A stretch of DNA of 64,000 nt from assembly GCF_000003815.2 (NCBI RefSeq), contig NC_049979.1, forward strand, positions 12,674,882-12,738,881. Reading direction: 5' to 3'. The stretch comes from Branchiostoma floridae (lineage: Eukaryota > Chordata > Leptocardii > Amphioxiformes > Branchiostomatidae). The notes below the pieces were generated by a model. The model had not been told where the DNA came from. It saw only the letters and a list, made by a program, of their open reading frames with translations, and did not search any database. Positions within the stretch are counted from its first letter, which is position 1; each line of letters starts with the position of its first letter. This document shows, in pieces, positions 25,594 to 60,485 of this stretch. A program made the translations under genes and the position numbers.

Positions 25594-28541
25594 TTACGAG
25601 ATCCACTGTAACACTGTACTGACAGTGTACCACTGCAGAGCAGAGGAGCATAAGTAGAAGAGATGGATAGACAACATCCACCATGGGCTAAATTTGATCT
25701 CCACGGCTTCGTCTGTAGTTTTTGTCCCTGGTCGTGTCGTACCAGGGGGAAACTTCCCCGTGGAGTAGAAGTTGGACAGAAGCTCCTCCTTCTCTTCAAA
25801 CCGCTTGTACAGCCATTTTGTCAGCCCTTCCTCATCCCGCGGAACCTCAGAAATGGGGAAATATCTGAAAGAGCCAGGTAGATAATGCACTGATTTCGTG
25901 TACTATGAAAACTTTACAAATTCCATAAATTTACATTATCTTTCACTGTCTACCTTACTCACATTGGTCACTTGCACCAGAAAGGCTATATAGAACCCCC
26001 TTGCATAGAGCATTGCCTTTAACAATGCACTGAAACTAAAAATACCTATCTTTCAATCTGATACAAAATTATATCTTTTCTTAAGTTACGATGAAATTCA
26101 AGTGAAGGAATTGCATTGACGATTTTTCCAGCAAATGAATGGAAAATTAGCTGACAAACCAATTTGTCCTCTTTATCTCCCACTGAGAAAACATCATATG
26201 CATGTCATCTTTCACCTTCACCTATGTACACCTATTTCTTATCTACAGTGGCCACAATATGTCACACCCTTCAAATGTTGAAGGTAGCACAACACTGCAT
26301 GTTTTCATGCACATGGGAGACAAGCAATCCTCACACATGGCATTGAAGGCTAATGCACAGTACATGAACAGATTTTGTGCATTGAGTGTTCTGTACCTGT
26401 AGTGCAGTGTGGTGGGATATGGTGGTCTCCATGTTGATACAAGGGTCTGTATGTCCAGCGGTCTGCCATCCTGATATGCAATGGTGATGTCAACAATCCA
26501 CTTAATGTGCTGACCTTTAATGGCAGAAGACATTGAAAAGATTGTTAAAAGCTGGCAGATAGTAAGTACCACATATATTAGAAAAAACAGCAACCTGGCA
26601 GAAAATATTTGCACCATTTGCACTAACTGCTAAAAAGAATTGATGCGAGCAAGAGTATTTGTATGGGAACACTCTTTGTAATATTCTGCTGTTAAAAATA
26701 CATGAATCACAAAGTCCATAGTCTGTAAACAGTAACTTGCCTTCTGAGTGCACTGCACCATTTTCCTGTAGTGGCCCATTTCTATGGGTCACTGGTGGGC
26801 CAACACTGTCCAGGATGGTTTTCAGGGCTCCGATTCGAGGAAGCACCACATGCTGTAGGACAGGCAGGTTGTGCTTTCTTGCATACCTGAAATACGAGGA
26901 ATAGGGAGTGACGTTTCATGGGGGTTTTGAGGAGGGAAGTAGGGCCTATGGCTGTCCCTTCCATTTTCCTGTAGCTACCTCATAACATTTACTGTTTCCT
27001 TTTGCTTTGTTAGCTTTGTTCAAACTGTTACTCCAGGAGAGATAGCATCATAGCAACCACTACAAAGCAGTCCAGATAGAGCTGGGCAAGGCTAGGTATT
27101 AGGTAATCAGATGACATGGCTTCCATTGATTTCTTTTCTTCCATTTCAAATCAATTCTGCAAATAGCATACATAGATTTTCTTGATAAAACTTCCCTGGG
27201 AATAATCTACCTGTTTTGTTTTGGTTTACATATAAGCTTTACTCACTTCTGACTCCGTTCTCGTCTCTTCCTGAGAAATCCTCCCTCTGGGAACAGAATG
27301 ATCCACTGGTGATTCCTGTTCAGATACCTGGTCTTTAGGTGATCCTTCAGTAGCTTCAGCATGACCTCACGGTACTGCTGTCCCTGGATCAGGTTACAAT
27401 ATGGTGTATTAGCATGGGAAAATCCCTATTGTCAAAAAACATGCAATATACCTACTGCTCTTTAACAGAGTACATGTTATGGTAGCTTGATATAACTTGA
27501 TAAGGGGGACAAAAATCACACATAATATCTGGAGTCACTGCAAGCCTTACACAGTTAGTAAGGGTACATTGTCTGACTTTCAGGATTCAGCAAATAACAT
27601 TTTATATTTTGGCATATTTTAGGCATTTTGAGCCTCTGGACTGGACCAACTGAAAATTTACAATAATTACTAAGACTGTATTGGAACTTTTGTACACAAC
27701 CTGCTGCAGAAAGAAGTCGCCATGAGTCCAGGCACACCAGCCAAAGTTGGAGTACAGGAAGATGTAGTCCATGATCCACATCATGCGCCTCACCACTGGG
27801 CCCTTGTGCTGAAGGGCGGCCATAAGGGTGGCCACGTCAGCTGTGGACTGGTGGTTCACTATAACTATTGCCTCATCACTGTAGGTGTGAGAGATGTCCT
27901 CACCACACTCGTATACTGAGAAGGAAACACAAAAATGAGACATGAAAATATAGATCTTGCATTATTCTATAGACCTGTGACACTGCCAATACGTATGCCA
28001 CTGGTAGCAAAAGTATTGAGCCAGCAGTCACTACTGAGGAAGGTACTCAGGCTAGCTATATTTTTAATAGAGATATTGCCAGCATGCAATTCAGCTTTTA
28101 ACTGTGATGTGTTATCGATTGACTGAAAACAAAATTCATAAAAAGTATCTGAATATTAAAGGTACATTCTTTCCTCTCAAATAATAGTTCAATACTCAGT
28201 AAAACACTTTTGAGGTTCACCAAGTAACAGGTATAACCATTGTAAGATAGCTCAATTATGAAATTACTACCCCCGGTACACTTACTCTTGTATCCAGCAC
28301 TGTAACCCCACCAGCCAACCTGGGCCAAAAGCCACTTGAACATGATGCCCTCCAGTCTCCAGAATAGTTCAGGTCTGAGTATGCGCACAGGCTGCAGACA
28401 CAGCAACCACAGGAAATGGGCAGGGATCACGTACAAGTTGTTGACCGTGATAAACACTAATCGCAGAGCAATCCTCAGCAGGTACCAGGTCCATGGCAGA
28501 AGCCACAACTGCAGTTGAGTCACGCGATCAACAAGTGCCAT
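25594..28541 (-). CDS. LPGAT1: Acyl-CoA:lysophosphatidylglycerol acyltransferase 1
   Basis: ER membrane acyltransferase of the PlsC/AGPAT family that reacylates lysophospholipids. Exons in transcript order: 28541-28286, 27915-27701, 27383-27247, 26886-26741, 26514-26397, 25864-25594, giving 380 codons plus stop (human about 370). Catalytic HX4D is NHQSTAD (H107 to D112). The motif III block ILFPEGGFLRKRR (E190) is intact. The N-terminus has hydrophobic segments (about residues 12-60), and a C-terminal hydrophobic segment follows EIKFSPWWML. The intron after 26741 has a GC donor (GAAG|GCAAGT); no GT alternative keeps the frame. An acceptor (CTCTACAG) lies one base before the ATG, so a 5' UTR exon should lie upstream towards the FH promoter. 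Family assignment rests on MWIMDYIF, THGDFF and FPEGGFLRKRRE. Confidence 0.95.
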
Positions 28542-29899: not shown

Positions 29900-34068
<4,169 letters not shown>

Positions 34069-38254: not shown

Positions 38255-38746
38255 GTTTAAGGGTTATGTGTACCTTACCCAAACTGATACCACATACGCT
38301 GTATCTGCAGGAAGGTCGAGGTTGACAAAGAATTTGGTGACAAGAACCTTCTAGTTCATGCGAACCGCCATTTGCAACTTGGGCGACTACATTTGCAGGT
38401 GATACAGATTAATCTATATCTTTATTTAGTAGTCCATAGCACTTCACAATACACAGATAAAGCATCAAATATTATATATGTCTACAGTTAAGTGATGTTT
38501 AGAGGAACTGTGGCACTAAACGTATTTTATCATAAAAAGAATTTTAAAGCCCCCCCCCCCCCAGATTCAAAGTGTATTGATCGCCGTGACGTCATCATTA
38601 ATGGTGGCCACAGATCGAGAAAGAAGCAAATCGCACAACCGATCGACGATTAGCTGTCCATTTACCGCTGCAGGTTCCTTCCAGTGACTTTATAGCTCTG
38701 TATATGAACCTAGACAGCCGATTGAACTCGATTCCATTCCACTGAA
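38255..38746. promoter_or_regulatory. Bidirectional promoter interval DNAAF10 (-) / TRAPPC2 (+)
   Basis: Only 492 bases separate the two start codons, which point away from each other. The interval contains a run of 13 C at 38550-38562 and a GC-richer stretch near 38570-38660. No TATA box was recognised. Confidence 0.6.
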
Positions 38747-39175
38747 ATGGCAGGAAATTACTATTTTGCCATAGTAGGGCACCACGACAACCCTATCTTC
38801 GAGATGGAGTACGCCCCTCCCAACAAACCAGCGGAGACCAAGAAGGACGACCACCGACACCTGAACCAGTTCATCGCCCATGCAGCGCTGGACCTGGTGG
38901 AGGAGCAGATGTGGATGACGAACAACATGTACCTGAAGACAGTGGACAGGTTTAACGAGTGGTTTGTGTCCGCCTTTGTGACGGCTGGCGGAATGCGCCT
39001 CATCATGCTGCACGACCAGAAAAATGAAGATGGCATTAAGAACTTCTTCCAGGATATGTACGAGACTTACGCCAAACACGCCATGAATCCATTCTACGAA
39101 CCAAATACGGTCATCAAGTCACAGGCGTTTGAAAGAAAGGCACAGTTCTACGGCAAAAAGTACTTGACCGGGTGA
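38747..39175 (+). CDS. TRAPPC2: TRAPP complex subunit 2 (sedlin), intronless
   Basis: Core subunit of the TRAPP tethering complexes acting in ER-to-Golgi traffic; a longin-fold protein. The single open frame of 142 codons has full length against the usual 140 and reads [50 protein letters not shown] and MNPFYEPNT. Asp49 corresponds to human Asp47, the site of a skeletal dysplasia mutation. No intron interrupts the coding sequence, unlike the human gene, suggesting intron loss or a retrocopy that kept or acquired a promoter. There is no poly(A) tract after the 3' end. AATAAA at 39678-39683 is about 500 bases past the stop. Confidence 0.96.
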
Positions 39176-40810: not shown

Positions 40811-43800
40811 TCATTTGTACAATATGTCGTAGTGTCCTGGTCTATACAACAGGAACACCTTTGGCTCTGTGCCTTCAGGAAAATCATGGTGGTTGACTTC
40901 CTCTGAACCAGCCCGGTCCATGTATTCCACACGAACACCAACGTCCAGGCTTGATGTCAGGGCTATGATGTGGATGTGGTCACTTTCCCTGGCCATCGGC
41001 TCCACCTCCTGTAGGACAACCAGATAGCTGTTATTGTTGCCAGTAGCACTGAGCTAGGCACAAAAACAGACAGTATTCAATGCAATGTCCTCAACATTGA
41101 CAATTTTACCTACAGATGGAGAAAATTCAATTTTGGCCCTTCAGGAGTAGCAATATGAAAAGGCCAAACAATTAGGGTGCTACGAAGGCTAGACATCCAG
41201 GTAATAAGATATACCATAAAGTAATTACTTAAGCAACCATATGATTTTCGAAACTGGTTATTATGTAGGGCATAAAACCTGCTGTTCAACCAGCCATCTT
41301 CGGTGTCACTGACAAAAGTGAGTGGATGCTGCCTGAAATGTCAGACCGTTTCCAAAATCATAGCCAGATGCTTGAGCAACTACTTTTTGGCTGAATTAGT
41401 GTGCTAGAAGTGTTGCTAGATGTAATACTCAAAACTATTACACAGACTAAGACAACAAAAATTCAAAACACATGAACATGAAGATAAAATACTCTATTTG
41501 ATAGAGTTTCAACTGCAAACTTACATGGCCACAGAACTCTTTGACAGAAGCATAGCTTTCAATGAAGTTCACAAAGAAGTCTTCATTTTGTTGCAAGTAG
41601 CCTGATGTTAGGAGCCGCAAGTAGACCACCAGATAGTCTGACAGGCCCTGGTCTCGGAAGGTTGCTAACAAATCCTCCACTGGGATCTGTTGTTCAACCT
41701 TCTCTACAACCTCCATGAACTGCACAAACAAGAGTCTCATTCTTATCAAGGTGAAGCATGACAGTATCATCTTTCTCAAAGTGCTTCTTAAATGTCTTTA
41801 TGTGTTGTTACTGGATATCAATCATTCAAAGCGAATTACCTGAAAGGAACAGAAATAATGATTACGGAAAAACAAAATTGAAGCAAAGACAGCATTATGA
41901 TATATTTGACATTAGCCTTTTGATTATAATTTCAGCATATCTTTTAGAAATAACTTACAGTATCGTGGAAGTCTTCTACTGTGAAGGCGGGGAATCCAAG
42001 GGACACCAGCATATCTTTACTTTTAGCAGCAACCTCTTTGAACCTGAAGGATAAGAGGCAATATCAACATCGTAATCAAGTTTAAATATTCAACACTAAA
42101 TGTCCAAATTACTAGTCTGTTATGACATGTACCACACCATTATGCAGGAACCAACAGTTTGAACATGTAGTTAAAATGATTGCTCTTGTGCTGCTCACCT
42201 TTCCAAATCTTTTCTGTCATCAAGCAACCTCTCCAGATAGGAAAAGCCAAAAGCCCTATAGAAGCAGTTCCCATCCCCCCTTGTTCTTCTGAAGCACTTG
42301 TATTTACTTCTCAAGTCCTGGAGACAGGGCAGAGAAAACATACTCATGTTGTTGGAGAAAGCTACTAGCAATCAAGATGATCAGAAACTTTTATACACAG
42401 TTATATGTAGTACAGCCAAATCAAATGTATTTTAAACAATTAAAAGTAGGAACTCTGTTAAAATGTGTCTATAGTAATACCTTGACGTTATCTTACATCA
42501 CAAAATTTTGAAGAAAAGCGCAGAGCACTCAAAATTGTCAGACATTCAAAGTTCAAAAATACAGAAATAGTTTGGGGACAGTTTTAAAACCTGACACCTT
42601 AATTTTCCCCTGGTAGACATTGTCCTCCTCTGAGTATTCTTTGGACAGCAGGAGAAGATCCTCGTGGTCCCCTATCAGCTGGGAAGTTTCTGCTATCTGT
42701 GGCAAGGGAATTATTGGTATACACATATTTTCTATTAACTTCAACATAAATACTGTAAGCAGAAAACTTCTAATTGTTTTTAAAGTCGTCTTACCACACT
42801 ATCTAGCATTTGAACCAGCACATATCAGCCTTTTCTCAGTGTACCACTTACTTATATGCGAAGACCATTTTATGAATCTATCATCTTGGGTGACAATGAA
42901 ACCCTTTTTTCCAGAGTTGTTATGACTTATTGTACAGGTAGCGATTTTAATGTATATGTATGTTAGTATCTTTTGTGTACCTGTATGGGTTTTTTAACCT
43001 GAAATAAAGAATAAAGAAAGAAACCCCCTTGTTTCCAAAGGAATCACTACTACATAAATTTGTACTAGTATTCAATCAAAGAGAGGGGAAACAAAATGTT
43101 GTACTTGTAGAATGGAATATCTCTTAACAACAGAAATGCACAGGTTCTGTAAACTTGTATTGGCTAACATAGAAAGCATCACATGCATACAGTAACACAC
43201 ATACCTGAAGTGTTAATAGGGATACTCGACACTGCCTAGGCAAAGTACATAACTTCATGAGTTAGCATTAGAGTATTAGAATCTTTAATTACATTGAACA
43301 TCAAGCAAACCAGTCTAAAAGTTCTGAACTTAACTGACCTCTTGTTGGATCCTGTCCTGCTGTGCCATGATGGCTTCATCATATTCTACACCTACACACA
43401 ATCAATGCATGGAGATTGGTAAAGGTGTCATATCTAAGAAGGTAATAATCAGTTGTATGTTTCCATCCAGTTTATTACAGTAACTGGATATAAGGTAATA
43501 ACTTGGCAATAACTAACCTATAAATATGGATCAAGGAGCTTCAGATGGTCGGGGTACCTGACATCACCCACCACAATACCCCACTCATCATGCATGATAA
43601 TTTACATACATGCAGCAAGCTTCACAAAATGATACAAAGTATAATACGCTACCAAAGCACATATCAGCATATTTCCTCATTTTTGCAATTCAAGTTTGCA
43701 ACAATTTGAGGTACATGAATCCCCCAACTTAAAACGTATTATAAATTTGACAGCTGTTCAAAATATTTCCTGCTTCGTAGGCTACCGCGTACGCCTTGTA

Positions 43801-43986
43801 TCAACTTTGGACCTTTCTGCCAAGGAATTCTTGGTATTTGGTGAAGCAATTTTTACGCAAATAAAGCCCTCCTTTTGTTGGGAGTACGTTCCTGCACTCT
43901 CCATGGGCATTTGAAGCGTAGTTTACGCTACCTGAAGGCAAAGCTTTGTCCAAACTCTCACCGGGTTTCGAGTTCGCTTCCGCCAT
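40811..43986 (-). CDS. OTUB1: Otubain-1 deubiquitinase
   Basis: OTU-family cysteine protease that cleaves K48-linked ubiquitin chains and also restrains E2 enzymes without catalysis. Exons: 43986-43932, 43391-43339, 42696-42598, 42317-42199, 42043-41959, 41719-41525, 41008-40811. The total is 804 nt, 267 codons plus TGA (human 271). The catalytic set is intact: Asp84 and Cys87 in TRGDGNCFYRAFGFSYLE, and His261 in LLYRPGHYDILYK at the C-terminus. Other anchors are EYDEAIMAQQDRIQQE, SDYLVVYLRLLTSGYLQ and ESDHIHIIAL. The N-terminal MAEANSKPGESLDKALPSG extension is variable in the family. C-terminal GHYDILYK and overall length favour OTUB1 over OTUB2. Confidence 0.96.
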
Positions 43987-44751
43987 GATTGATGTCTTCA
44001 GTTCGCATGCGCAACTGTGGCGGGTGGGTCACCTTAGGTCATGCACCAGATGGCACGTCACGTGGGTAAACAACCAAAAAGCGGGACACCTTCATCTTTG
44101 CTTGGCCCTTGGCAGTTTTAGAAATGAAAATTGTATTACCAAGCTTTATTTGGATTGACTAGTCTTGTTTTGGGGGCTGTTAATCTATCGATGTCAACAA
44201 TTATTATTAAACATAGACATCACTGGAAAACGGTAACGTTAGCCCGGTATCCAGGGTTAACATGTTTAATATGGTCTTACATTTGTAATGTTAGTCTAGC
44301 AAGTTGAGTCTGTTCCTCTGATTATTCACCAGGGAAGAGACCAGAGGAGCGAACCGAAGCTATAGTAAAATTGATACCAAGCTACGATATGTGAAATTCC
44401 ATTGATTCTGTGTAACGCGTTAGGCTGTCCCGTGTTTACTTGAGAGATATGAGAATGGACATTGAGGCAATTGTAAAGGACGCCCAAACAGAAGGAAAAG
44501 ACACAGACCTTACATGTGGCCTTTTTTAATTGGACTGTTCTGTCCTCAGATTGATGGAAAAGAGAAAAGTGGGATTTTGTTGCACAACAATTTATTTCTG
44601 AAGTCTCTGTGACATCACAGGCTGTGTTCTAGAGCAACAGTGCTACTGGCGTTCTTCAATGGTCGGAAAATGCGGTTTCTCTAGTGTACAGTATAGAAAA
44701 TCACAACTGAACCACTAAATTGAACAAACGCCATATAAGACGTGTGGGTAG
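43987..44751. promoter_or_regulatory. Bidirectional interval OTUB1 (-) / ADCY10 (+)
   Basis: The start codons are 765 bases apart and divergent. CGCATGCGCA at 44004-44013 resembles an NRF1 site, 18 bases upstream of the OTUB1 ATG. CACGTG at 44059-44064 overlaps a CGTCA CRE half-site. GTAAACA at 44066-44072 is a forkhead core. The cluster sits closer to OTUB1; which gene it serves is not known. Confidence 0.45.
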
Positions 44752-44896
44752 ATGGGGGTGGGGTGTTCATCAGCCGGCTGGAAGAAGCCCAAAGAGCGCA
44801 CCAAGAGAAGGAGCAGCGTGGCGCCATGGCGCGCGAGTTTTGCTGACCCTGACGACGCGGACGATGACGCACAGAGCACGTATGAAGATGCAGAAG
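44752..44896 (+). other. ADCY10: ADCY10 exon 1: predicted acylated N-terminus
   Basis: The protein begins MGVGCSSAGWKKPKERTKRR. Gly2 and Ser6 fit the N-myristoylation rule MGxxxS, Cys5 is placed for palmitoylation, and seven Lys/Arg follow within residues 11-20, as in dually acylated membrane proteins. A D-rich segment (ADPDDADDDAQSTYEDAE) follows. Confidence 0.7.
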
Positions 44897-47800
44897 GTAC
44901 ATGTGTAGTTATGTTCATGATTATTTGCTACGTCGCAAACCTAGTCATCTTTCAGTCATCAGGTCAGGACAAGCCTTCCTCAAGAGAGAGGAAACATATC
45001 TTAACTTGTTTCTTAAATGTTGATATGTTCATCTCCAATTCATTGAAAATCCCGTCTTTCATAGTTTTGTTGTGCCATACATACTTGGCTAAGCCGATTA
45101 TCAAAAAAGTAAGTCACCACTTCTTACGCGCGTATCTTTGCTTACACGTCACGGTAGAAACAGGATTGCAAGCAACTCCGAAAGCGAGAGATAAGAGGTA
45201 CAGTTTCGATGACCAAAGTGACAAAGACATGCCCGACATCGGTCGTTACGCTAGCCATGTACCCGACCTTGTCATGTATCGAGACCACGACAAACCTATG
45301 CCATACCGCAAACGGCAGCGAGGGGTCATCATGTTTGCTGATGTTTCAGGTAAAATATTGCATCGTCTCAATTTTCGATTTTTTTTCACAGAATGATTTA
45401 AAAAGCCTGTGTTATTATAGTCCATATAGATTGAAATTAAAATTACCCTCGTGAACTGGAATCAAAGGGATCAGTCCGTGTAATGATGATTCACATTATT
45501 TCGTAGTCTATCCATGAGTTCTTAACTTCGGGATCGTTATTGTTAAGCTGACAATCCCAAAGTAAACGATTGTACAATTCTTTGTGAAAGATGTACTCTT
45601 TTTGGCTCTGTCAAATCTCACCGTAACCGCCTCTTGCAGGGTTTACATCACTATGCGAGAAGTACACTCACAGTACAGACAAGGGATGTGGTACAGATCA
45701 ACTGACCAAGACACTGAACAGTTACATCGGCAGGATTGTTTCTGGCATCCTGGCGTGTGGCGGGGATATTCTAAAGTTCGCGGGAGACGCTATATTTGCT
45801 AGGTGGCAGGTAATCATTCCCTCATTTATTATTACCATTATGACACGTTCAAGTAAAGAGTTTTGAAGGCTATCATTTTACCAACGAGGTTGTCGCATCG
45901 AACTGGATTAAATGTTGACGAAACCCAGGCCAAGCGGACAGAAGGCCCTATGATTGCACTTAGCGTTTTACGTCCACTCCCAATCGTAAGTTAGTTGTAA
46001 GCGAGCCTCCATGCCCGTGGTGTCATCATCATCATCCTCCTCTGGATCTTCATCTACTGTCATGGTGACGATCTGCTTGTCATATAATGCATGCAATCAT
46101 ATAAGCAAAAATGCATCATTGATACACTATAAATCAATACACAATGTTGAAACGTTTCTGACTCGTTCTCAGTGAAATGTCGAAAATGGCATTTTTTGGT
46201 CGAAAATTAAATCGGCTTTATTTTCAGTGAAAACTAGCTGGTTGTGTAGGAAAATTCCTATTCTAACCATAGCCAAAAAATGGCAACTTATTATTTTCGA
46301 TCCCATTGGTAATGCATTACAGGGCAGGTAACAAACGTTACCGGTAACGTTTGTTACAACAGCAGACTTTACCCTGTTTTCTTCGAAAGGACTCACCTTA
46401 TTGACTACATCATCTAGGTATAAGTGGACGTCCTTAGGAACATTTAAAAAGTGGGCAGCTTTTTTACACCAGGTCAAATAGAAAGCTTAGACAGCATCGA
46501 ACAATGGTAACGTTTGTTACAGTCATTTCTGTACAACATTTTGTTAAGCAAGGTGGGATACAAATGACAGTCAACAACCCTTTCTTGTTGCTTTAGAAAG
46601 CCAGAAAAACTGTACAGCGTCACAAAAACCGTCATTTCTAGTCTTATACGTGGATAATATAACCGTGGCAACCACTGGACTCATGGTGGTAACGTTTGTT
46701 ACCGAATCTGGCGACAGGCATAAACTACCTCACACAGCCTCCAAGATCAGTGACAGTAGCGATCTGACGTGATGGGTCAGAGGGCCTGGTCAGCTGGTTT
46801 CACCTACCGAACAATCATTCTGGGAACTGTATTGTTATATTTTTGGCTACTATTTGAATTCTTCGTTTTTTCTCAGGCGACAGCCATTTGTTGTGGGGGG
46901 GGGGGGGGGTGGAATCCCACCCGTGGCTCTAATGATCCTCTAAGTTGTTGTCTATAATTTGCTCCATATCAAGGCGTTAAGTCAGGCAACAGCATTTCGA
47001 CATTTAAATGAGAACGAGCCTTCTAGTTGTTGTTTTTTTGTTTTTGTTGTTGCAATATTTGCAATGCCGACCACATTCTACAGGTCGACACAGGAAAGGA
47101 GTTGGGCTCGACCCTGAAGGAAGTGGTAATGTGCAGCCTGGACATTCAATCTGTGTGTGACAACTGGGAGACTGACGTGGGCGTCAAACTGCGCGTTAAG
47201 ATAGGTGAGAAATCTTTAAACAGCGTTTTTCTTGTGACAGAGTGATCAAAGTATATCCACTACTTCGCACATGGATCAGCCATCTAAATTGACTGACTGA
47301 ACCAATTCCGTAATATAGATTTAGAAATATCATTTTATGTCCACAAGATAGAAAGCGCCCAATGTCATCTTTCACGTACAGGTTTGGCCGCCGGAGAGAT
47401 GAAGATCACTCATTTTGGAAACAACGTGGAGAGGATATTTGCCGTGACTGGGCAGTCCGTAACAGATGCCAACCTGGCCGAGAAGTTCGCCGACTCGGGC
47501 ACAATCATCCTGTCCCCTATGGCGTGGAAGTTGTGTGACAAATCCAGTTTTCAGTGGGAGTTCCGGAAGGATGGGCGCCACGTCAAGGTGGAAGTTGTGA
47601 TTATTGAGGAGTGTTGACACATGACCCAGTGATCACCATGTACTTCTGGTTCTATATTTTACCTCTGCCCCGAGTACAAAGTCGGTGGATACATAGGCAT
47701 AATTCGACTCGCAAAAGAAAAAAAGTGCTCCAAAGCATAGTACCGTACACAATGTATAAAAGGAACCTATCAGAGACTTTAAACGTTAAAGGTAAACTGA

Positions 47801-50800
47801 CATCAACCTCCTTAAATTTTCCATTCCGCTAATCTATCAAGACTGGCATGCAAAATAAACTTATGCAACTTGTGTGCCCTTACCGTACAGGTCTCTGGGC
47901 TAAACAGTGACGACGTCATTTCAAACTCCCTTTCCATGGGCTCCTCCTTTGGTGAAGCCCGACCGAAGACCCCCGGCAAGCTCTCCAGCACCACGGGTTC
48001 CCGTATTAGGAGAAAATCGGGTACATGAGGCCTGCCTAAGTTGTTAGAAGGGTCAACAATTCCATATGTTGCATGTTCAAGTTTTACAAACGTACGGTAG
48101 TGGCAGTGTGGTAGATCGCCATGATGCGATTGGCTAGTGGACTTTCATTACCTCTAGTTATGCATATACTCTGTGTATGTAAATACATTTCTTCTACCCT
48201 GGGAATGGCATATTGCTGTAACTGTGAGTATAAGGCAACCCGTATGTAGTTTAAAACACATTGCACTGCATCAATGCTTTAACACTGTCCGTTTCTTGAT
48301 CCACGTAGTTCAGTCGGGTGAATCGGGCTCGAGCCAGAAGAAGTCACCTGAGCTGGCTTGGAGAATGATCAGTAAGTTAGATTCCACATGTCGTAGTACA
48401 TTATCAACCGGATGGGACATTCACAAACGTATACAAACTGCACAGTGTACCAGTGATATCCGGATATGGAGTTTTAAACATCGACTCTGGTTCGCTTGGC
48501 TAGACAGTAACAGCTTGTGGAGACGTCTCTTTAACTATCTGTGGACATTACTACCGACATTATTTGACCATATTCTGCGTCTCTCTCACACGACAGGACG
48601 AGAAGCTTGCTACTCAGAGGATGATTCGGCTATGGAAGATATCAGAAAATACATCATTCGCCCCGTGCTGCAAAAGGTACGTATGGATGTCTGCAAGATG
48701 AAACGTTGAAGACTTGTTTGGCGGGAACAGTGTTTTGCAATATTTTCTGCCCGAAGTACATTGAGTCTGACTAACTACTGCCACTAAACAGTGTCACCGT
48801 TTTACTAACAGAAGCTTTTGGTATCATCGTAGCAATTGACCAGAAATAGCTGCAAACGGATTTTAACCATATTCCACTGCCTTGATTTGACTTGTATGTA
48901 ACAACGGATGAAAGAGGAATCCGTTGTAATATTAGATGCAGAATAGAGAAAAGGCAGTACATCCCGTGCAGGAAAAATGAGAAAAGTACCGAATGTACCT
49001 TGTGTTACCAGCTTGATGATGACCAGCCCCTGATTTACCTGTCAGAGGTGCGACAGGTGTCAGTTGTCTTCATCAACCTTGTCCACCAGGACAACTTCAA
49101 CGACGAGCAGGAGTGTGAGGCTTTTCAGGAGGCATTCGACATCGTCTACAACAGCGCACACAACATGCAAGGTCAACTATCCCCTCGCTTTTGGGGTTGT
49201 CATTGTCAGCCATTTTCTAGATCACGAGTAAAAAGTCTCTGGAAAATAATACACTTAATCTGCATTACGTTAACCGCAACCTGAGACGACTAAACGCCAA
49301 CTGCCAGGGACCGGAATTGTTTATTTTTTTGCTTTCTCCGACGTACTCGAAGTAACGTCAACGTTAGCGAACTCAGGTCATATAACATGCAACGTAAGTC
49401 ATCTTCTAAATAACTGGAACCTTTTTTTTGCAGGCTGCTTGAACAAGGTGTTCATGTTTGATAAGGTAAGGCAATTTCAACTGTGTTGATTGATTGATCG
49501 ATCGATAGACATTTATCAAATTCAGGGTGCCTTTATTAGACACATGACGGTGCTAGGATGTACCTCTACTTTTTTATGTCTTCCATTTAATACGAACGTT
49601 ATCCCAGGTATGCCAGACAAAATTGTTATCAATGAAAGGGGTGGATAGACATTGCACCATCGATCCTATCCTACAGGGGTGTACATTTCTGGCCATTTTT
49701 GGGCTTCCGGGATACAAGCATGAAGACGATAGTGCGCATGCCTTGAAGGCTTCTAGCAAGATTCTTAAAGACCTACAGCAGAAGGACAACGTCAGGTCAG
49801 TTCTAGCCACTGATAAGTTATACAAACAATGCACTGTATATGTTTACAATTTATAAAGCGTTGCTATGCTTATTAATGATTCCTGTGGACACCATAAACA
49901 TGTAACTTTCTACGAAATAACACCAGCATATGATAACTGATAATTGTTCTGTATTTTTCAGACATGTCTCTATAGGTGTAACGACTGGCTCTACTTTTTG
50001 CGGCGTTGTAGGACACAAATATAGACATGAATATACAGGTTTGTTACGGCTTTTTTGTTCGTTCCTTTTTGCGTAACTATATGCACATTCTTTATGATGC
50101 TGCGCTTTGTGCTTGATGAAACCAATAACTTCACTAACGATTGTTAGTTACTTTGCTTCATGTACTACTGTTACAGTAGTTTTAGTTTTAATAATTCATT
50201 TAGTAGTTATGTATGTATGTACGTAGTTGTTTTTGTTTCATTTGTTTATTTCAAATATGTTTCTGTGTACTACATTCCATTTGCCGGCTCCTCTCAGAAC
50301 ATTTCTGTAAATCCGAATAAATAAAAATAACAGTAACAGGTTATCCACAGCGTTTGAAAAAAATCGGTCAAACTTTTATGCTTGCTCTGATGTCAGCATA
50401 TTTATCAGGGGGAAGAAAACTGTATGTCGGGAAATTGATTTGAGGCGATCTTCCTCCTTTGAAAGTACAGAAGAAACACCTTGTCGTCACAGCAAATGAC
50501 ATAGTCTTGTACCATATTTATTTGTCCTGCAGTAATCGGGCGGAAGGTGAACCTGGCCGCCCGTCTGATGATGGCCTACAAAGACAAAGTGTCGTGCGAC
50601 AACGAGACATACTACCACTCTAAACTACCCAGACACGCCTTCGACGAGCTACCGTTCATTGAACTGAAGGGAGTGCAGCAAACTACACCTATGCATGAAT
50701 ATTTGGGAGACGACAGGTTGGTTGTCATTGTCACTGACCTGATTGATTGAGTAGGGCGTCTCTGGTAATGAACATAATCATGAATGTTTATCCAATCTCC

Positions 50801-53800
50801 TCCCACTGATAAGATAAATCATCATGTTTTGAAAAAAAAAAACTTACCTAACCAACACTGAAAAACAATGGTTGTCATTGTCACTGACCTGATTGATTGA
50901 GTAGGGCGTCTCTGGTAATGAACATAATCATGAATGTTTATCCAATCTCCTCCCACTGATAAGATAAATCATCATGTTTTGAAAAAAAAAACTTACCTAA
51001 CCAACACTGAAAAACCAACACAGATGAAGTTTCATGCTAAAATGCCTAGGTTTATTTATCATGTTGTTTGTGTATTGCATTCTTTCTGGCAGATCATTAA
51101 CCTAATCAAGTAAGATTCTGGGGAATGGCTTCAACAGCCTTTGGCAGCAAAATGAAAGTTGTAGTGCGACACTGTCTATATGCAGACTCCTCACATTTTA
51201 TGACTCCTGATTGTGATAATAACACAGGGACGGGAAGGCACACGCTGCCGAGGTGCCGGAATACCCCATTCTTGGTGAGTTCCACAGTACATTATTGAGT
51301 TTCTTCGCCATTAGATTTTTGGGAAATCTCTACATGATATCGAAACCATAAAGCGATTTAACTGGACTCTAAAACGTCAACAAGTAGCTATAGCATAGCA
51401 TCACCATCACGTATTGGAAGAGTAGGCCAACAACAACCACACTTTTAGTAAGATAATGGCAACCTACTTCAATTTGTCCGTGTGCATCACACATGGCCAC
51501 TAACAGGAAGTATTCCTATTGTACACAGGAAGAGAAAAAGAGATGGAGAAGTTTCTAGATGAACTACACCTGATGACACAGCATCTGGAGAAGGGGGATC
51601 ATCGGAGGGTCATCATATTCGAGGGCGAGGCTGGGATCGGCAAGTCACGCGTGCTGGAAGAGGTGATCTTGAAGGCAGAGGAAGAGGGGATCAGGTACAA
51701 AAAGCCGGTTGTGCGATCGGGGATACATGCCAATAATGCAACCAGACGCTTTATTGAATTACGCCATTGGAAACTGGGAGTTACTACAATAATGAGTATA
51801 TAAACTGAAAATAGCTACATGTGTTTTGTCCTCGTCGATACTAGTAATAATGAAACTGTATGCTAGATGATCATTAAAAATGGCGCATTCTTCATAAATG
51901 GCATCGTGTACGCAGTCGAACCCTTCGGATTAATGAAAATACCACCTTTCTTCCTCTGCAGGGTCCTGTCATGTGCCTTGACAATCCAAGACTTTAACAC
52001 GCCTTACATCACGGTAAAGACACTGATCGACATGCTGTTCGATATAGACAGCAAGGACTCTCACATTGAGGCTGAACATCATCTGTTGAGCATCATCAAA
52101 CACCATGACGTGGCAGACGAGCTTTGTCTTCTCAATGACCTCATCAATGTCAAGGTAAAATTTCTATGCGATAGTTTCAATGCATTACATCTTTACTTAA
52201 CATCCGTAAAAAGGGATAGAACTACTGACCCATTTTACGTCGTACAAATAAAACTTGAGCACGCTGTGCTAGCATGCTTTTACTTGTTAACGTTACGTGT
52301 CTAACAGACAAAGCGAACATGTGGTATCACAAATCTGTGCAGCTTTAAATTGTACAAAGATGTAGATATGTGTGAGTGAGATTTGTGAGTGGGATGCTCC
52401 TATCGCCAGATTCCGTTTGGACCTGTCGTGCAGCAACACCGCATGTCGCACATTAACGGCAAATGTCTGTGCATACGACTGGCTCTGTCCCTGGTACTGA
52501 AAACTGTGGCGATGTCGTCATCTATCCATAGAAACTCCTTTCCTCACTTCAGCAAACCCCTGAACGGCACCTTTTTGTTTTCTCAGTTTCACGTAACCCC
52601 TCTAGTAGCAGCCATGCGTGGGGAGGAGAGAACAAAGGAGCTTCACAAGTTGTTGTTTAAGATTGTTCACGAAGTAAGTTCACTCGTTTTCTTGGTTGCC
52701 ATCCACTAATACTAGTAAAGCTACTTACCCGTTTTGTGGTAAACGATTAAAGCATGACACTTATGATCACCAAATATGCACATTCCTCCTGGAGAAAACT
52801 TTTTCTACAAACAACAACAGCAAGAACAACATTGTACGGTCCAGGTGTGATTGATAATTATTAAAGGTCGTCTTTCCAGTATACAGCAGACAATTTTGTC
52901 ATGTTTGCGGTGGACAACGCTCATCTGATCGACCACGATTCCTGGGAATTCATCTCTGATTTGTCAGAGGACCCGAATTCGGTCTGCATCATGACCATGC
53001 GGCCATTGCAGCCCAACAAAATGCCCAACCAGACCGCACTGAGTGTGCTGTACAGCCCCTACACACTGCACATCAAGCTGTCCGGCCTGGACGAGAGCGT
53101 CATTCCGGACCTGGCCTGCCAAATCCTGGACGTGGCACAAATCCCCATGGAAATCAAGGAGTAAGCTTGGCGTACATACACCTTCAATCTTGTATTACTG
53201 ATTTGATATAGGCATTTTGAAATACTGGGTGTCGAGTGTTTATGATCCAAAGTTCGTTCTTCACAGAGTCCTGCAGAAGAGAAGCCACGGCGTCCCATCC
53301 TGGTGTGAGCAGGTGCTTCGTCACCTCTACTTCCAGGGCAGTATCAAGACCGTCAACATGGAAGAAGCGCCGCTCGAATACAGCCGGTTGTCTCATAAAA
53401 GGTCTGTTTGTAGTGATGGTTCCAAATTTGACTTGTGGTGGAGTTTCGAACGAGATGAAGTTAGATTTTATTGAAGTAAAACGACTTATTGGCGACAGGG
53501 GTGGAAGTTGTGGAATAGGATAGTCATGGAACTGACAATTTGTAATTTCTATGAAATATCACTACCAAGGTCACAAGACACTCATCCACTCCCGACACCA
53601 TTTCAACATTGAAAGGTTGGTTTTCTATTTGGACAGGAGTTCCATCCGGAAGCAGAGCTTAAGCACAGGTAAGGATCCATCGGAAATGGCGGGCGGCACC
53701 AGAAGTCAGACGGGGTCCCGTACAACGGAAGTTGCAGAAACGACGATGGTGTGCATCCTGGCACCCGGGGTCAGTCTGGATGACTTCAACTTACCTGAAT

Positions 53801-56800
53801 CGGTTAAAGGTACGCACAAGGCCCCTCGGGTTATGTTTGTCCCGTTTCTACCTTATCTTAATTCAGCTACAAAAACACCAAAGATCTGGTTACGTAATCA
53901 CACATAGATTGGACATTGATATACCTCGGCTGCAAGCGACCACACTAACTCATATGATTATTTGTTTTTGATTTTATAGATTTTCGGGGCTAAGTCAGAT
54001 CGTGTCATAACTTCTTGAGTTACAATCTACAGATATGATGGTTGCGCGGCTGGACAGGCTGAACACGTCCGACAACATGGCGGCCAAGTGTGCCTCGGTC
54101 ATAGGCGTGACCTTCACCCGGAGGATGCTGGAGGCCATCATCCCTCAGTACAACAACAGAAAAGTACGCTTTGTCTTTTCTCTTAATTGAGTCCGATAAT
54201 AGTAATGACGTGCAGGGAAACGTGTAAAAAAATCCCCTCAAATAATTTCACAGTGCATACATGCTCATGGTCATCACCACCACTTTGATGACGACACCTT
54301 CCAACCCGCAGGTACGCGCGTCCGTCCAGTCGCTGATGCAGTGTCAGATCCTGGAGTGTGCCGCCGGTGACGAGGATGAGCACCGTGTCCACCACCACCA
54401 CGCGCACCTGGCCGCCTCACAGAAGATTGAATGCCGCTGCGTGAAGGATCCTGGTGATGAGTCCTTTCTCGTATACCCAAAAGGTAACCGCTCCAGCCCC
54501 GTCGTCGTGGACATCCACTGCAAGCTACTGCGATTTAGATCTCCGCTCATCCAGGAGACAGCGTACGCCCTGCTCACAGAGGACCAGAGGAAAGCCTTGC
54601 ACAAGATGTGCGGCGAATTCTTGGAGGGACAGGCGCATAAGTGTAAGGCATGTGGTGGAGGAGATTTTGTACACTACCACGGGCAGCAAGGCAGTGAGCC
54701 GAGGCAACAGGAAAGGCCGACTGCAACGTCTGGTGCACTAGTGCAATCAGCCACCGGCATCGAGGAGTCATACGCATCTCTTAAACTCACTCAGTCCAAG
54801 CTACAGCCTTCCATAGAGAAGTCCCCAGGTGCACCGGGTGTTAAGCGCATGTCTGCTGGTGGAGGGGGAAGCCGCAGACAGAGCTCATTTGCCGGTCGAG
54901 TTCAGAAAATGGAGAGGGGATTCAAGGCGCAGGACTTTAGAAGGTCCTCTGATTTAAGCACTATGACGATAGAGCAAGGTGAATGATAGATTCTTTTCTT
55001 CTTGTAATACTAATACTAATACTATACTAATACTAGTAATAGTTCTTACATGAAACAGGAATATATGGGTAGTTTTGATAAACAAATCTATTTAACAGAA
55101 AAAAAGTCAAAATAAGTGTCGTGCCATCTGTATTTTGCAACCATTATCGCCGCTTCAGGCAGCGTCACCTCCTTCGGAAGTAAGATGAGCGGAAGTAGGT
55201 TGAGCGTGGATAGCAAATCCCGTTCCAGCGCCGCGGGCTTCTTCGGGTAAGGAACTTTTAATTACCATTTGCAGTTTTGCATTTGGTGCGATTCAACAAG
55301 GCACGCACTCCTGTCAGATATGAACCTGCCATGAACGCTTGTATGTCTGTTATCGGTATATCGTTTACTAATTCTCTTCAGGCTGTTTCCTCTCCCCTAT
55401 TCCTTGTGGCTTTCTTTGTTTCTTTTTAGCTTGGAGTTTATTTGGCACTTAACCATTCATATTACATTTTATTAGCATGGATTCCATACATGTCAAATGT
55501 ACATGTTGAATGTACATGTACATGTTCTAGCCTATGTTCTGCTGTATGAGATCTTAAGGTACGTCTCAAAGTATGCTGACTTTAAGGCTTGTTTTTGTTT
55601 TTGTATCAAATCATCAATGCAAAGACTCTATGTAAGATCGGCTGTTTGAAGCTGATGTCATGGGACAATCTGATCATCTTGGCTGGCCTGTAGGTCTGCC
55701 AGTGAGGTACAGATGGAGGAAGGGTGGAAGCAGCTGGACATTGATCTGCGCGGCTGTGAGTGCCTGCAGGTCCTGGCCTCCGTCTACCCTCTACTGCTAC
55801 ATCATTGGAAGGGCGCCGGCAACGTGTCAAAGGTCATCCACTTCCTGGTGGAATCATCGGCGGCTGCAGTTTCAGTCAATAACAACATGGAGGTATTAAG
55901 GCTTCGACGGTCAACTTTTATACAAAATATCCCACTTCATACAGCCATAATACCACTATGAGACGTCACAGCCCAAATGCATTTAGTGGGTCAGATAGGA
56001 CCGATAGACAGCAAATGTATGAAGGGTTTGATTTATTTACAGAAAAATTGATTCAATTCAACAATCCATGTGGAGATATTTCAATAACAGTACCAAATGA
56101 CGATAAGTTTTCCTCGTAGGCACTTTCCCACCTGTCCGAAGTGTCGGACATGCTGAAGGCCATATCTAAGGGTCGCAAGGCACTGGAGAACGCAACAGAA
56201 AGGAGCGTTCGAGTTGACAAGGAGGAAAGGTCTAGGATTGAGAGTCTTCAGGGTCAGGTGAGACGTGTGATATGGCAACACCTGTTGCATATGGAATGTA
56301 CTGATTAGTTTAACGCCAAAAGTAGTCATAAAAACAAGTTAATCTATCTTTATATACATGTATTGCTGTTAATCTATTCATGCAGCAACAAAGAGCAAGA
56401 TTTATAAAATCATTATCAGAGGCAAGGCAAGAGGAAACAGAACCCAGTCCGTCACCCGCTTGTGTTTCTAACCTGCTTATCCAATTTCTTAAATGCGTAA
56501 CGAATCTATCTTGCCCTAGGCTTACTTCCAAATGGACCGTTTCGAGGACTCCATGCCACACTTCCACCGAGCGCTGAAGATCCTCGGAAATCCCCAGCCT
56601 ACGACTGAAGCTGGCGTCAGACTGCGACTGCTTCGAGCGGGCTTCCGACAGGTCCTACATGTGATGTGGCCCGATCAGTTTGTAGGAAAAGCCGGGTATG
56701 TCTGACATGCATTCCGTTCAGCATTCCAACAGGAAATAGATTACTTTTAATTACTATCCTCATATAGCGATTGTGATATCTGTTGGATATAGGACTAACG

Positions 56801-59800
56801 GTATCAAATTTTACCGTATGGAATCCAAACATTTTCATTTTCCACTTTATCTAGACGGTGGTAAACCTCCAATTGCGCCGAAACTTTGGCAACATATGCA
56901 CGACACAGGAGGCAAAACATTCCAACGTTGTAGACGACGAATACACGCTGAATGTTTATTCAGTCTTCTAATGCAAATTTGTGGAACTATTAGCCGTTTC
57001 ACCATTATCTACTGATCTTTCACAGGAGTTCCCGCGCCAATGTGCTGGTGGAGCAGGCCCGGTGTCTGTCGCACGTGTCCCACGCCTACCACATGGTGCA
57101 CCAGGACAGGCGCGCCCTGGTCGCCGCCCTGCAGCAGCTCAACGCCGCCGAGCAGGCAGACGACGACCTACATGAGGTATGGGCCGCTTCAAGGGGGAAT
57201 ACTCCACAGAGTTCTTAAGCGTGCTTTTATCATGTAGGGTGAGATTTAATCAAGGATATATCAAGCATTAAGTAGACAAGAACCGAACATTGAGAGAGGA
57301 GAATGAAGATCTTTTGTCCAGAGGCTGACAACTCACAGGCCCTCGGGCCTAGAGGCGTCAGGGTGAGATATATTATCAAATACAAGCTTGTGACGATGGG
57401 GACCTGTCTGTTTGATGAAAACTCATGTACAAGTAGGACTAAAATTAAAATTATCTTTAAGATTAGCAGTGATGTGTATCCATGTATCTCTATAGCTGAT
57501 CACAGCCTACACCGCAATCATGGAGAACTGTCAGCTGATGAACTGGTCCAGAATTGCAGAGGGATATGAGAGGAAAGCCCTGAAGAGGTGAGAAGCTGCC
57601 ATCATTCCAGCCTGTGATTATCTCTGTGAAAACTGTTTGATTTACTGAGCTGAAACTGAAATTGATACTCCAAAAACAAGGCTGCAATCACTACAGCATT
57701 CTAGCCCTCAACCGACGTCTTCAATTGTCCATCTATATTCCATCACAGATGCAAAGAGGTGGAATCTAGCCTAGTGGCCGATGACCTCATCACATTGGCG
57801 CACCTCTTCAGTGTCAGCATGTCACTCCGGCTGGGAAGGGGACAAATTCACCCTGCTGTCGACTCAGGTCTGTGTATACACCCCATGAACTTGGTATCCA
57901 ACCCCATATTCACAGTCATGTTAGTTTGTATTTAATGAAATGTAATATTTTTTATGGTTTGTACGTTTGTAATTGTTTCTAACATGTTGAACGAAAAAAG
58001 TAGGATACACTTTTGAACGGTTCAACATTTTATCGCCTTTTTCAAAGAGGATTTCCTGTAAAGACATGGTGTATTCTGCAATGTATTAAAAGAAACATCT
58101 TTGGAAATAACTTCAAAAGAGTGGAAAGTCTCTGATTAATAACGCTTTGCTCCTACTACGAACTCCCAATAGGCTACCATTCCAAGTCAGTTTGTGAGAG
58201 GCTTCACGACAACGTGATGGAGCTTCAGTGCCTTCCGCTGCTGGCGCAGGCACTGCTGTTGGCAAACAGGTGAATGTAACTTTCAGTACCGCAGCTTATG
58301 ACCACCAATCGTCACAGTCCAACTGCAACTATGTCTGTGTCCTATTTAGAACTGTGTTCTATCGGGGTCGTTACCCGTTTCTTAGTGGGGAAAGCCTACT
58401 TATTAGGCAATTTAGTTACAAATACATGAACTACAGTTAATATCAGAAGAATATCATGCAGATTATTAATTCTCCTCAGAAGTTAAACTTTTCTGTGGAA
58501 AATGTTGTGATTTGACACTGTCACATCATTTTGGATGGTGTTTGGTTATGAGTACTATCAATCCCTGATAGTTGCAACACTTACATTTATATACAATGCA
58601 GGGAACGTGACAGTGTGGAGGTAGTGCGTCAGTTGTTCTACCTTTCCGAGGAAAATGAGGACGTCATTGGCAAGGCGTGGTACTACTGCAACTGCCTGGA
58701 CCTGCTGCTGGAGGAAGGTTCTCTCCAACTCACCTTTCCTTTTTATCATATCCTAATATCCTAGTTACGGGTCTTCTAGCATGTATAGAAGAATGATATG
58801 TTTCCAATTCAACTTAAACATTACCCGTATCATATATACTGGCCGTCATCGGGTCAGCTCTCACAAATATTAATCAAATATGTTAGCCTTGACCATTGAT
58901 AATGCTATGCCATTCTACCGTGTCTTGCATAGCAAATGAAAGCTCTGAGAAACCGACATAATCCTTTTCTTCGTTAATCGTTTGTACTTTTTTTACAGGA
59001 GTTGTTCTGGAGAATTATGAGGAGTGCGTAGAATTTACGTCAGAAGCCGCTGAGGACCCGTCGTTCATGGATGACGTTATCCCGCGATTTTACCTGCTAG
59101 CTGGTCTTGCACTTTGGTGAGATGTCCGAGATTTTACCTATTTTAACCATAACTGTTGTATCAGACGTGACAATTTCTCTTTTACCACTGTTCTTCTTGT
59201 GTGGACCTTTTAGATATTTGCAATTCACTTAACTCATCATCCATTCTGCCGAAATAGTTCCAACCAAATATGTGAAAATGACTTAGACAAATATTGATGG
59301 TTAATTGGTGGATTGTGTGGTTTCCCAGTGCCTCACGGAAGGGGAACTGGCACCGAGCCGAGAGTTGGTTCCTGTTGGCAGAAACCATTCGCCCGCCACG
59401 GCTGGAGACGTTTATGGCCGCCAACGCGTACGCTAAGGTGGTGGAGTGCGAACTGCTAGCCTACTGCAACGCCTTGGTGCTGGGAATGAAAGTTATGATG
59501 ATGAGAAAACAGGCACAAAAGGTCAGTCAGTTATGTTCCATAGCTTGGTATAGAACTTCCGCCAAATCTCACTGTACGGACGAAATTTCCGGACTTAAAG
59601 GCACAGGAAATGTTGAATGGATATGCCCGTGGTGCTGAAATATCGGTTGTACTTGCATCATCAAATCAGTGAACTGAACGAGTTTGCAACGGGCACTGTT
59701 GCAATGAGCTACACCCCTGATAGAACTGTAAATTAGTGATTCTCCATTTTTACATTATTAGTACTAGTGCTAATATGACTGTTCGATCCAGGCCATCAAA

Positions 59801-60485
59801 CAACTCGGCCACGCGTGCCTAGACTTCCCGGTGCTGAAGCCGCGATGGCTCCACTATCAGGCGTACTTTCACATGCTGTCAGGGGACGCCAAAATTGGAC
59901 GGGACTTTGTGGATAAAGCTGTGGAAGTGTGCGAAGAACATGGCAATGAGATGGAGGAAAAATGGGTGCTATACAACCGCAGGTGGGGAACACAAGTGTG
60001 CAAAAACTGGAATGTGTTTGTAGCTTTCCAAATAGAAAATCATGCAATGGGCCCATTACATGATGTTTGCAGAAATTTATTTTACTTATGGAGTGCATTT
60101 GTCAAAGTCATGGTTGCAAGTCAGCAGACAACACCCAGTATTAAATGTACCATGTGCTATTTGACGCAGTTTACATAAGCACTCAAAGTTCTGTTGAAAC
60201 CTTGACAAAAAACAATACAATGGAAAATAAAGGAAAATACTATTATTGTTTGACAAGGAGTGTTTCTCACTATTAATCAATTTTGTCACCACGCAGTCAT
60301 CATATAGAGAAAGCCAATGATTGTGTTGTGTTTAATTTAACAGGAGGTGGTTCAAGAAGAGGAAGGTGAATCAGACCAAGTTTTGGATCCCCGATGGGGA
60401 CCTGGACTGGCACACTAAGGACGACCCTGGAGCCACAGAGATCAAGTACTGGCTGCCCATGCCTCCACCTTCCAGCAAGTGGTAG
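44752..60485 (+). CDS. ADCY10: Soluble adenylyl cyclase (ADCY10-like), complete, 35 exons
   Basis: Class III cyclase making cAMP, normally bicarbonate- and Ca2+-regulated, followed by a STAND-type NTPase and TPR-like region. Exons: 44752-44896, 45164-45349, 45640-45809, 47084-47204, 47382-47587, 47891-48020, 48309-48371, 48597-48676, 49012-49171, 49434-49465, 49677-49795, 49962-50038, 50533-50716, 51228-51274, 51529-51694, 51962-52154, 52587-52673, 52880-53160, 53267-53401, 53637-53809, 54033-54163, 54312-54978, 55159-55246, 55694-55892, 56120-56257, 56520-56695, 57026-57176, 57496-57587, 57749-57867, 58173-58269, 58602-58717, 58999-59116, 59329-59521, 59792-59982, 60344-60485. They sum to 5373 nt: 1790 codons plus TAG, against 1610 in human. 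The start is preceded directly by an in-frame TAG (44749-44751) and lacks a pyrimidine-rich acceptor. Unusual points are given under the domain entries and findings. Confidence 0.95.
45968..46098 (-). other. Short acidic open stretch in ADCY10 intron 3
   Basis: On the minus strand about 40 codons run to a TAA at 45968-45970, reading TVDEDPEEDDDDDTTGMEAR and ending QLTYDWEWT. The Asp run comes from a (TCA)n-like stretch. It could be the 3' tail of a decayed gene copy or chance; no product is recognised. Confidence 0.25.
46328..46357. repeat. Perfect 30-bp palindrome in ADCY10 intron 3
   Basis: GTAACAAACGTTACC at 46328-46342 is followed with no spacer by its exact reverse complement (46343-46357). 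The right arm GGTAACGTTTGTTAC occurs again at 46506-46520 and 46688-46702. Confidence 0.95.
46460..47025. repeat. Dispersed repeat, copy 2 (ADCY10 intron 3)
   Basis: Diverged copy of the repeat at 8776-9254, same orientation and same block order, interrupted by a run of 15 G at 46895-46909. Together with the palindrome it fills most of the intron between exons 3 and 4. Confidence 0.75.
47891..48676 (+). other. ADCY10: ADCY10 C1-C2 linker, Ser/Lys-rich
   Basis: Exons 6-8 encode a Ser-, Gly- and basic-rich linker ending in RKYIIRPVLQK. RIRRKS ends exon 6 (Ser319) and is a PKA consensus. The 225-base intron between exons 7 and 8 has no stop in frame. Confidence 0.75.
49012..50716 (+). other. 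ADCY10: ADCY10 C2 cyclase domain
   Basis: Exons 9-13. KVFMFDKGCTF, VSIGVTTGSTFCGVVGH and HEYTVIGRKVNLAARLMM are diagnostic. Thr496, Asn503 and Arg507 match human Thr405, Asn412 and Arg416 in spacing, so nucleotide and transition-state contacts are kept. The C2 metal position reads VVFINL, without Asp, as normal for sAC. Confidence 0.85.
50720..51018. repeat. 150-bp tandem duplication in ADCY10 intron 13
   Basis: The segment starting GGTTGTCATTGTCACTGACC occurs at 50720 and again at 50870, identical except for one base in an A run and junction bases. It begins 3 bases after the splice donor of the exon ending at 50716, so the donor itself is not duplicated. Confidence 0.9.
51529..53401 (+). 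other. ADCY10: ADCY10 STAND-like NTPase domain
   Basis: Exons 15-19. Walker A is GEAGIGKS (606-613), a canonical GxxGxGKS. The Walker B strand reads VMFAVDNAHLID: Asp734 is kept but the next residue is Asn735 where the human protein has Glu. Confidence 0.75.
54312..60485 (+). other. ADCY10: ADCY10 C-terminal CxxC block, insert and TPR-like helices
   Basis: Exon 22 (667 bases, the longest) holds a His cluster (HVHHHH, about residue 988) and the family-conserved HKCKACGGGDFVHYH. It then has a low-complexity insert with RRQSS (1150-1154) and RRSS (1172-1175). Exons 24-35 encode helical repeats, many at about 35-residue spacing, ending KYWLPMPPPSSKW. Confidence 0.7.

Follow-up and report, generated by a model that had tools for sequence, protein, structure and literature searches.

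A lancelet soluble adenylyl cyclase with a predicted N-terminal lipid anchor and a genotype suggestive of pH regulation

Introduction

Soluble adenylyl cyclase (sAC) is named for its solubility, yet the sea urchin enzyme is described as tethered to the sperm membrane (PMC12867704). The lancelet locus described here raises the question of whether a chordate sAC may carry a tether of its own, in the form of an acylated N-terminus, and of which signal such an enzyme would read. The window, that is, the whole stretch of 64,000 nucleotides that was analysed, covers positions 12674882-12738881 of contig C1 in an assembly of 513,431,437 bases and 431 contigs. Positions below are those of the window.

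Results

An ADCY10-type soluble adenylyl cyclase gene

A hand model of 13 exons, joined in phase from 44752 to 50716, yields a product of 559 aa that matches human sAC (PDB 4OYA/4CLF) with E = 5.1e-106, which bears out the identity that a sequence-only reading of the locus had assigned to it. The first catalytic domain (C1) corresponds to residues 72-282 and the second (C2) to residues 342-557, residues 49-71 and all numbering downstream of them being dependent on the exon 2 acceptor chosen. The features on which the argument draws are the following, numbered according to the model in which exon 2 starts at 45158.

44752..60485, + strand: whole sAC gene; automatic chains of 1750-1816 aa with the C-terminal end ...PPPSSKW and stop, start ATG and stop being imposed
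45158..45349, + strand: exon 2 (may instead begin at 45185 or elsewhere); first part of C1, with an internal Met, residue 73, near the human start
45640..45809, + strand: exon 3; C1, with Lys158 (human Lys95) and Asp162 (human Asp99)
47382..47587, + strand: exon 5; C1, with Asn240 at the position of human Arg176
49434..50716, + strand: exons 10-13; most of C2, with FDKGC (Cys435 = human Cys342), Lys427, Asn505 and Arg509
51529..51694, + strand: exon carrying GEAGIGKSR, a P-loop resembling Walker A; its borders are approximate

The Pfam family Guanylate_cyc was found in two stretches of the spliced 559-aa model (87.1 bits), while the single ORF 44752-45396 gave no Pfam match; two class III cyclase domains are thus present according to both Pfam and the alignment to human C1 and C2. 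The catalytic positions of human sAC (Asp47, Asp99, Lys144, Lys334, Asn412 and Arg416) are all kept, as Asp110, Asp162, Lys208, Lys427, Asn505 and Arg509, respectively. No transmembrane segment was found in the 559-aa model, the highest hydropathy over 19 residues being 1.3. By homology, the locus encodes a genuine ADCY10-type sAC.

Automatic exon chains were also built at four intron penalties, with splice matrices derived from the hand exons and with the start ATG and the stop imposed, giving 44, 38, 37 and 37 exons (1759, 1750, 1816 and 1816 aa). Eleven of the 13 hand exons were reproduced identically. The hand model was retained because the chains differ from it only at exon 2, which they begin at 45185 rather than 45158, and at exon 12, where they contradict homology: the automatic version of exon 12 is shortened despite clear homology to human sAC. 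A further chain, obtained with a small intron penalty, contained 88 mostly spurious exons and was dropped. Since start and stop were imposed, and since every one of the four chains contains a spurious 1-base exon at 57238, the borders of the C-terminal exons are only approximate. Within this C-terminal part, ORF 51504-51803 matches eight families, mainly P-loop NTPases (best AAA_16, E = 0.0005), each under its curated cut-off. Two tandem 150-bp copies that match at 99% occupy 50719-51015, starting 3 bases past the end of exon 13.

When the whole assembly was searched at the protein level, 14 candidates were scored, of which 12 passed E <= 0.01. Each of these falls inside the window, which indicates a single sAC gene at that search sensitivity, and the search found no sAC paralogue with which exon 1 could be compared. 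The Guanylate_cyc profile search of the genome gave 101 exon matches, none of them on contig C1; the exon-by-exon profile therefore missed the short exons of the sAC gene.

Other genes are recognisable in the window. An otubain-family gene (40811-43986, - strand) lies divergently upstream of sAC, with Peptidase_C65 matches at 40811-41053 and 41447-41797; its possible first ATG, picked by eye, is at 43986, in an ORF that has no Pfam match, and would put the two gene starts about 765 bp apart. A Sedlin/TRAPPC2-type protein is encoded at 38726-39175 (+ strand), nearly whole in one ORF of 149 codons and seemingly without introns there. Exons of CRM1/exportin-1 (1695-2084, + strand), of a fumarase gene (33526-34068, + strand) and of an acyltransferase-family gene (27602-27961, - strand) were also seen.

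Exon 1 and the translation start

The N-terminus is set by the first exon and its surroundings, listed here.

44692..44751, + strand: candidate 5' UTR segment, dependent on use of the acceptor that ends at 44691 (score 10.8); contains two in-frame stops
44749..44751, + strand: in-frame TAG immediately 5' of ATG 44752
44752..44896, + strand: sAC exon 1, MGVGCSSAGWKKPKERTKRRSSVAPWRASFADPDDADDDAQSTYEDAE; Gly2 and Cys5 as putative sites of N-myristoylation and S-acylation, respectively, with a basic stretch (11-20), a PKA-like site, RRSSV (Ser22), and an acidic tail
44897..45157, + strand: intron 1 according to the hand model, 261 nt long; non-coding by score; open in the frame of exon 1, with a chance of about 1.4%

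Exon 1 encodes MGVGCSSAGWKKPKERTKRR... from ATG 44752 and ends at 44896, where a GT follows; the N-terminus of the protein read from this ATG is MGVGCSSAGWKKPKERTKRRSSVAP. The exon coordinates, the N-terminal peptide and the in-frame TAG just before the ATG, all given in the sequence-only reading, proved exact. Two in-frame stops (TAA and TAG) lie within 60 bases 5' of the ATG. The acceptor ending at 44691, the best scanned in 44300-44896, would begin an exon at 44692, in which the first ATG is still 44752; no acceptor within exon 1 scores above 0.6, whereas the 11 sAC acceptors that went into the matrix score 6.1-16.6. Both in-frame stops and the poor internal acceptors therefore make MGVGCSS the N-terminus if exon 1 is in the mRNA, the exceptions being use of a poor internal acceptor or skipping of the ATG, whose start context has a T at -3 (weak Kozak) and a G at +4. 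An out-of-frame ATG in the context GCCATGG, at 44823-44829 and 74 bases past the sAC start, opens only MAREFC and a stop; it could matter for leaky scanning.

Exon 1 has a coding score of 0.49 bits per codon. For reference, 26 left-out blocks of 48 codons from presumed coding exons range from 0.01 to 0.64, and 98 stop-free stretches, overlapping one another and taken from introns and upstream DNA, reach -0.10 at the highest; for the most part, the background counts came from this non-coding DNA too. Because frame 2 of the exon, with its stops removed, scores 0.58, the score reflects composition more than frame; GC content is 61% in exon 1 against 43% upstream and 37% downstream. Support for the reading frame itself comes from exon 2, which joins in phase, and from ORF 44752-45396, which runs without interruption. 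The exon 1 donor, AAG/GTACAT, scores 9.2, inside the range of the 11 matrix donors (5.0-10.4), and is the best among those scanned in 44000-44950. A test of 9 of the 14 donors listed for 44000-44950 gave five alternative ATG/donor choices in phase with exon 2, four of them within 43992-44065 and the fifth at 44514-44568, each having a weaker donor (4.2-6.1).

The join to exon 2 is less sharply defined. Among the 10 best listed acceptors of 44920-45240, six keep the frame of exon 1, the top two included (44963, 6.2; 45065, 3.3; 45185, 0.2; 45164, -0.9; 45158, -3.4; and 44987), and four break it (44991, 2.3; 44956, 2.0; 44968; 45114). The exact join is unsure, because the acceptor at 45158 is so weak and these four break the frame. 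Since ORF 44752-45396 contains no stop, however, MGVGCSS reaches C1 through any frame-1 acceptor, or with no splicing at all. Intron 1 was also considered as coding, within one long open exon, and this was rejected: 44897-45157 scores -0.36 bits per codon, inside a non-coding range that included intron 1's own stretches, and is therefore treated as intron. An in-frame sAC isoform that retains it is conceivable. Intron 1 encodes a hydrophobic 19-mer with a mean hydropathy of 2.34.

A candidate lipid anchor

Rules of the MGxxxS type over-predict N-myristoylation, which has to be kept in mind in reading the N-terminus. The motif there is MGxxxS with Cys5 (MGVGCS), with a Met-Gly start, Ser6 and an uncharged small residue at position 3, the last being the requirement of PROSITE PS00008. 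The usual myristoylation consensus is given as MGxxxS/T (PMC4736023), and MGxxxS likewise in PMC6678300. Lasting membrane binding commonly needs a second signal, either a basic cluster or an S-acylated Cys nearby (PMC4736023); here, Cys5 is accompanied by seven Lys or Arg in residues 8-20, with a net charge of +6 over residues 1-20; against an anchor, the protein turns strongly acidic past position 27 (net -9 over 28-48). In sperm hexokinase HK1S (MGQICQ), a protein with the Gly2/Cys5 layout, dual acylation is experimentally established, and mutation of Gly2 or of Cys5 abolishes membrane location (PMC4736023). UNC119 and Arl3 can carry myristoylated cargo to cilia (PMC6678300), and lancelet sAC might conceivably be delivered by this route. 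In the literature that pairs sAC or ADCY10 with myristoylation, as far as the parts drawn on here go, myristoylation concerns a targeting tag, PKA inhibitor or AMPK.

The window contains, on both strands, 1055 ATGs with 20 open codons. Seven fit MGxxx[ST] and three of the seven also have a Cys at positions 3-6, so that this looser motif is not very rare (3/1055); addition of at least four Lys or Arg in residues 8-20 leaves ATG 44752 alone (1/1055). The membrane anchor predicted in the sequence-only reading is partly supported, by the motif, by the rarity of the full combination in the window and by the extension ahead of the core, acylation itself being plausible rather than proven. The anchor is a plausible and well-placed candidate on a genuine sAC.

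A genotype associated with pH regulation

In human sAC, HCO3- is held by Lys95 and Arg176, and Arg176 is needed for HCO3-. The alignment puts Lys158 of the lancelet enzyme at the Lys95 position and Asn240 at that of Arg176. The pair that marks the HCO3--regulated genotype is therefore incomplete, and the enzyme has the K/N genotype, in which Lys95 is kept and Arg176 is replaced by Asn. K/N is found in many marine invertebrates, K/R being kept by a few nonmammals (PMC12867704). The sea urchin (K/N) and salmon (N/R) enzymes, the only two for which pH regulation is demonstrated, respond to alkaline pH but to neither HCO3- nor Ca2+ (PMC12867704). Replacement of Asn198 by Arg in sea urchin sAC did not confer HCO3- sensitivity (PMC12867704), so more than one residue differs. 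The bicarbonate-type signalling that had been proposed for the lancelet enzyme is unsupported, because the Arg176 position is Asn, and K/N goes with pH regulation in sea urchin; given this genotype, the proposal is to be replaced by a prediction of pH regulation. The core looks tuned to pH rather than to bicarbonate.

Discussion

The lancelet protein may best be read as a membrane-anchored, pH-regulated sAC, and I lean slightly towards the joint view that translation starts at ATG 44752 and that the N-terminus carries a lipid anchor. In this model, Met1 would be removed and Gly2 N-myristoylated, Cys5 would then be S-acylated, and the basic stretch 11-20 would add electrostatic membrane binding. 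A tether of about 70 residues, probably disordered, would hold the catalytic core on the inner side of the plasma or flagellar/ciliary membrane. From the K/N genotype, alkaline pH, not HCO3-, would be expected to switch the enzyme on, and an alkaline switch held on a membrane tether would thus sense the local pH beside sites of membrane Na+/H+ exchange. Since amphioxus is listed among the animals that retain CatSper, sNHE and sAC (PMC6660944), a role in the flagellum is reasonable. If true, an acylated chordate N-terminus would be a simple tether linking pH sensing to the membrane layer of Na+/H+ exchange.

The PKA-like site RRSSV (Ser22) comes directly after the basic stretch. Across the extension and C1-C2 linker together there are two RRx[ST] sites, where shuffling predicts 0.18 (p = 0.012); the test was devised after the site had been seen. 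An electrostatic switch is known from Src and MARCKS. A quite unlikely extension of the model is that the lipid anchor fixes invertebrate pH-regulated sAC in general to the sperm or ciliary membrane beside SLC9C1, in the layer where pH would change most, and that PKA acting at Ser22 releases the enzyme; release as cAMP rises would then be a built-in negative feedback, like the Src/MARCKS switch.

The start might be correct and stable lipid anchoring nevertheless fail, MGxxCS being only myristoylated or unacylated and membrane association, if any, being due to SLC9C1. A sequence rule does not prove acylation; mouse full-length sAC is reduced or lost without SLC9C1 or TMEM217 (PMC12557800), and SLC9C1 is reported to be associated with sAC in sea urchin (PMC12867704). 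I nevertheless consider this explanation unlikely, for Gly2, Ser6, Cys5 and at least four Lys or Arg come together once in 1055 window ATGs, and TMEM217 is reported missing from invertebrates (PMC12557800). It is very improbable that the motif arose by chance and has no function, in an N-terminus that is disordered and evolves fast: MGxxx[ST] with a Cys at 3-6 does recur at three window ATGs, but the full combination occurs once only, at the apparent true gene start.

Alternatively, most transcripts may start not at exon 1 but with a different first exon or at the internal Met 73; the product would then be soluble, like human sAC, and the anchored form a minor isoform or missing. Ciona is among the animals in which both full-length and truncated sAC have been reported (PMC10668965), and at the lancelet locus the Kozak base at -3, the weak exon 2 acceptor and the phase-compatible ATG/donor choices upstream all leave room for such a start; re-initiation at an in-frame Met is conceivable after the MAREFC ORF (GCCATGG ATG, +74). 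Against this stand the coding-like composition of exon 1 and its donor, the best scanned in 44000-44950, and I would put the probability of this alternative as low as that of a correct start without stable anchoring.

Compared with human ADCY10 (PDB 4CLF / 4OYA), the lancelet enzyme shares the C1-C2 order, the catalytic residues, the Lys95 position and FDKGC with Cys342, and differs in having Asn240 for Arg176. The alignment pairs lancelet residue 72 with residue 10 or 11 of the human sAC chains; because only about 10 residues precede the aligned core, human sAC has no comparable N-terminal extension, and in this respect the contrast with the mammalian enzyme drawn in the sequence-only reading holds. 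To call mammalian ADCY10 cytosolic, as was done there, is too simple: mouse full-length sAC decreases upon loss of the membrane exchanger SLC9C1, which TMEM217 helps to place (PMC12557800), and palmitoylation of sAC at Cys342 has been reported in cardiomyocytes (PMC8410846). The equivalent of Cys342 is kept in the lancelet as Cys435.

The N-terminus of Lck is MGCGCSS, and Src has a basic stretch and a PKA site. Lancelet sAC shares Gly2, Cys5 and Ser6 with Lck, and a basic stretch followed by RRxS with Src; unlike these Src-family kinases, to which it is unrelated, it has one Cys only. Sperm hexokinase HK1S likewise shows the Gly2 and Cys5 layout on a soluble enzyme, these being acylation sites in HK1S, but it is without Ser6 and is not a cyclase (PMC4736023). 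In the Ciona flagellum, full-length and truncated sAC occupy different parts, and the authors suggest that the TPR part may cause this placement (PMC10668965); by analogy, TPR-based placement may be a rival way of positioning sAC.

A close parallel is the sea urchin enzyme, described as membrane-associated, tethered to the sperm membrane and pH-regulated (PMC12867704, PNAS 2026). ApsAC of Arbacia punctulata shares the K/N genotype (Lys117/Asn198, against Lys158/Asn240 in lancelet) and differs in that its C1 begins at residue 26, as against near 66 in lancelet sAC (PMC12867704). A word search of the main text of PMC12867704 found neither 'myristoyl' nor 'palmitoyl', and its account of the tether, in the parts drawn on here, gives association with SLC9C1 and names no covalent anchor. 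Sea urchin sAC activity climbs sharply between pH 7.8 and 8.0, which would fit a response to local membrane pH (PMC12867704). In the lancelet, a lipid anchor could work beside, or in place of, partners of the SLC9C1/TMEM217 type.
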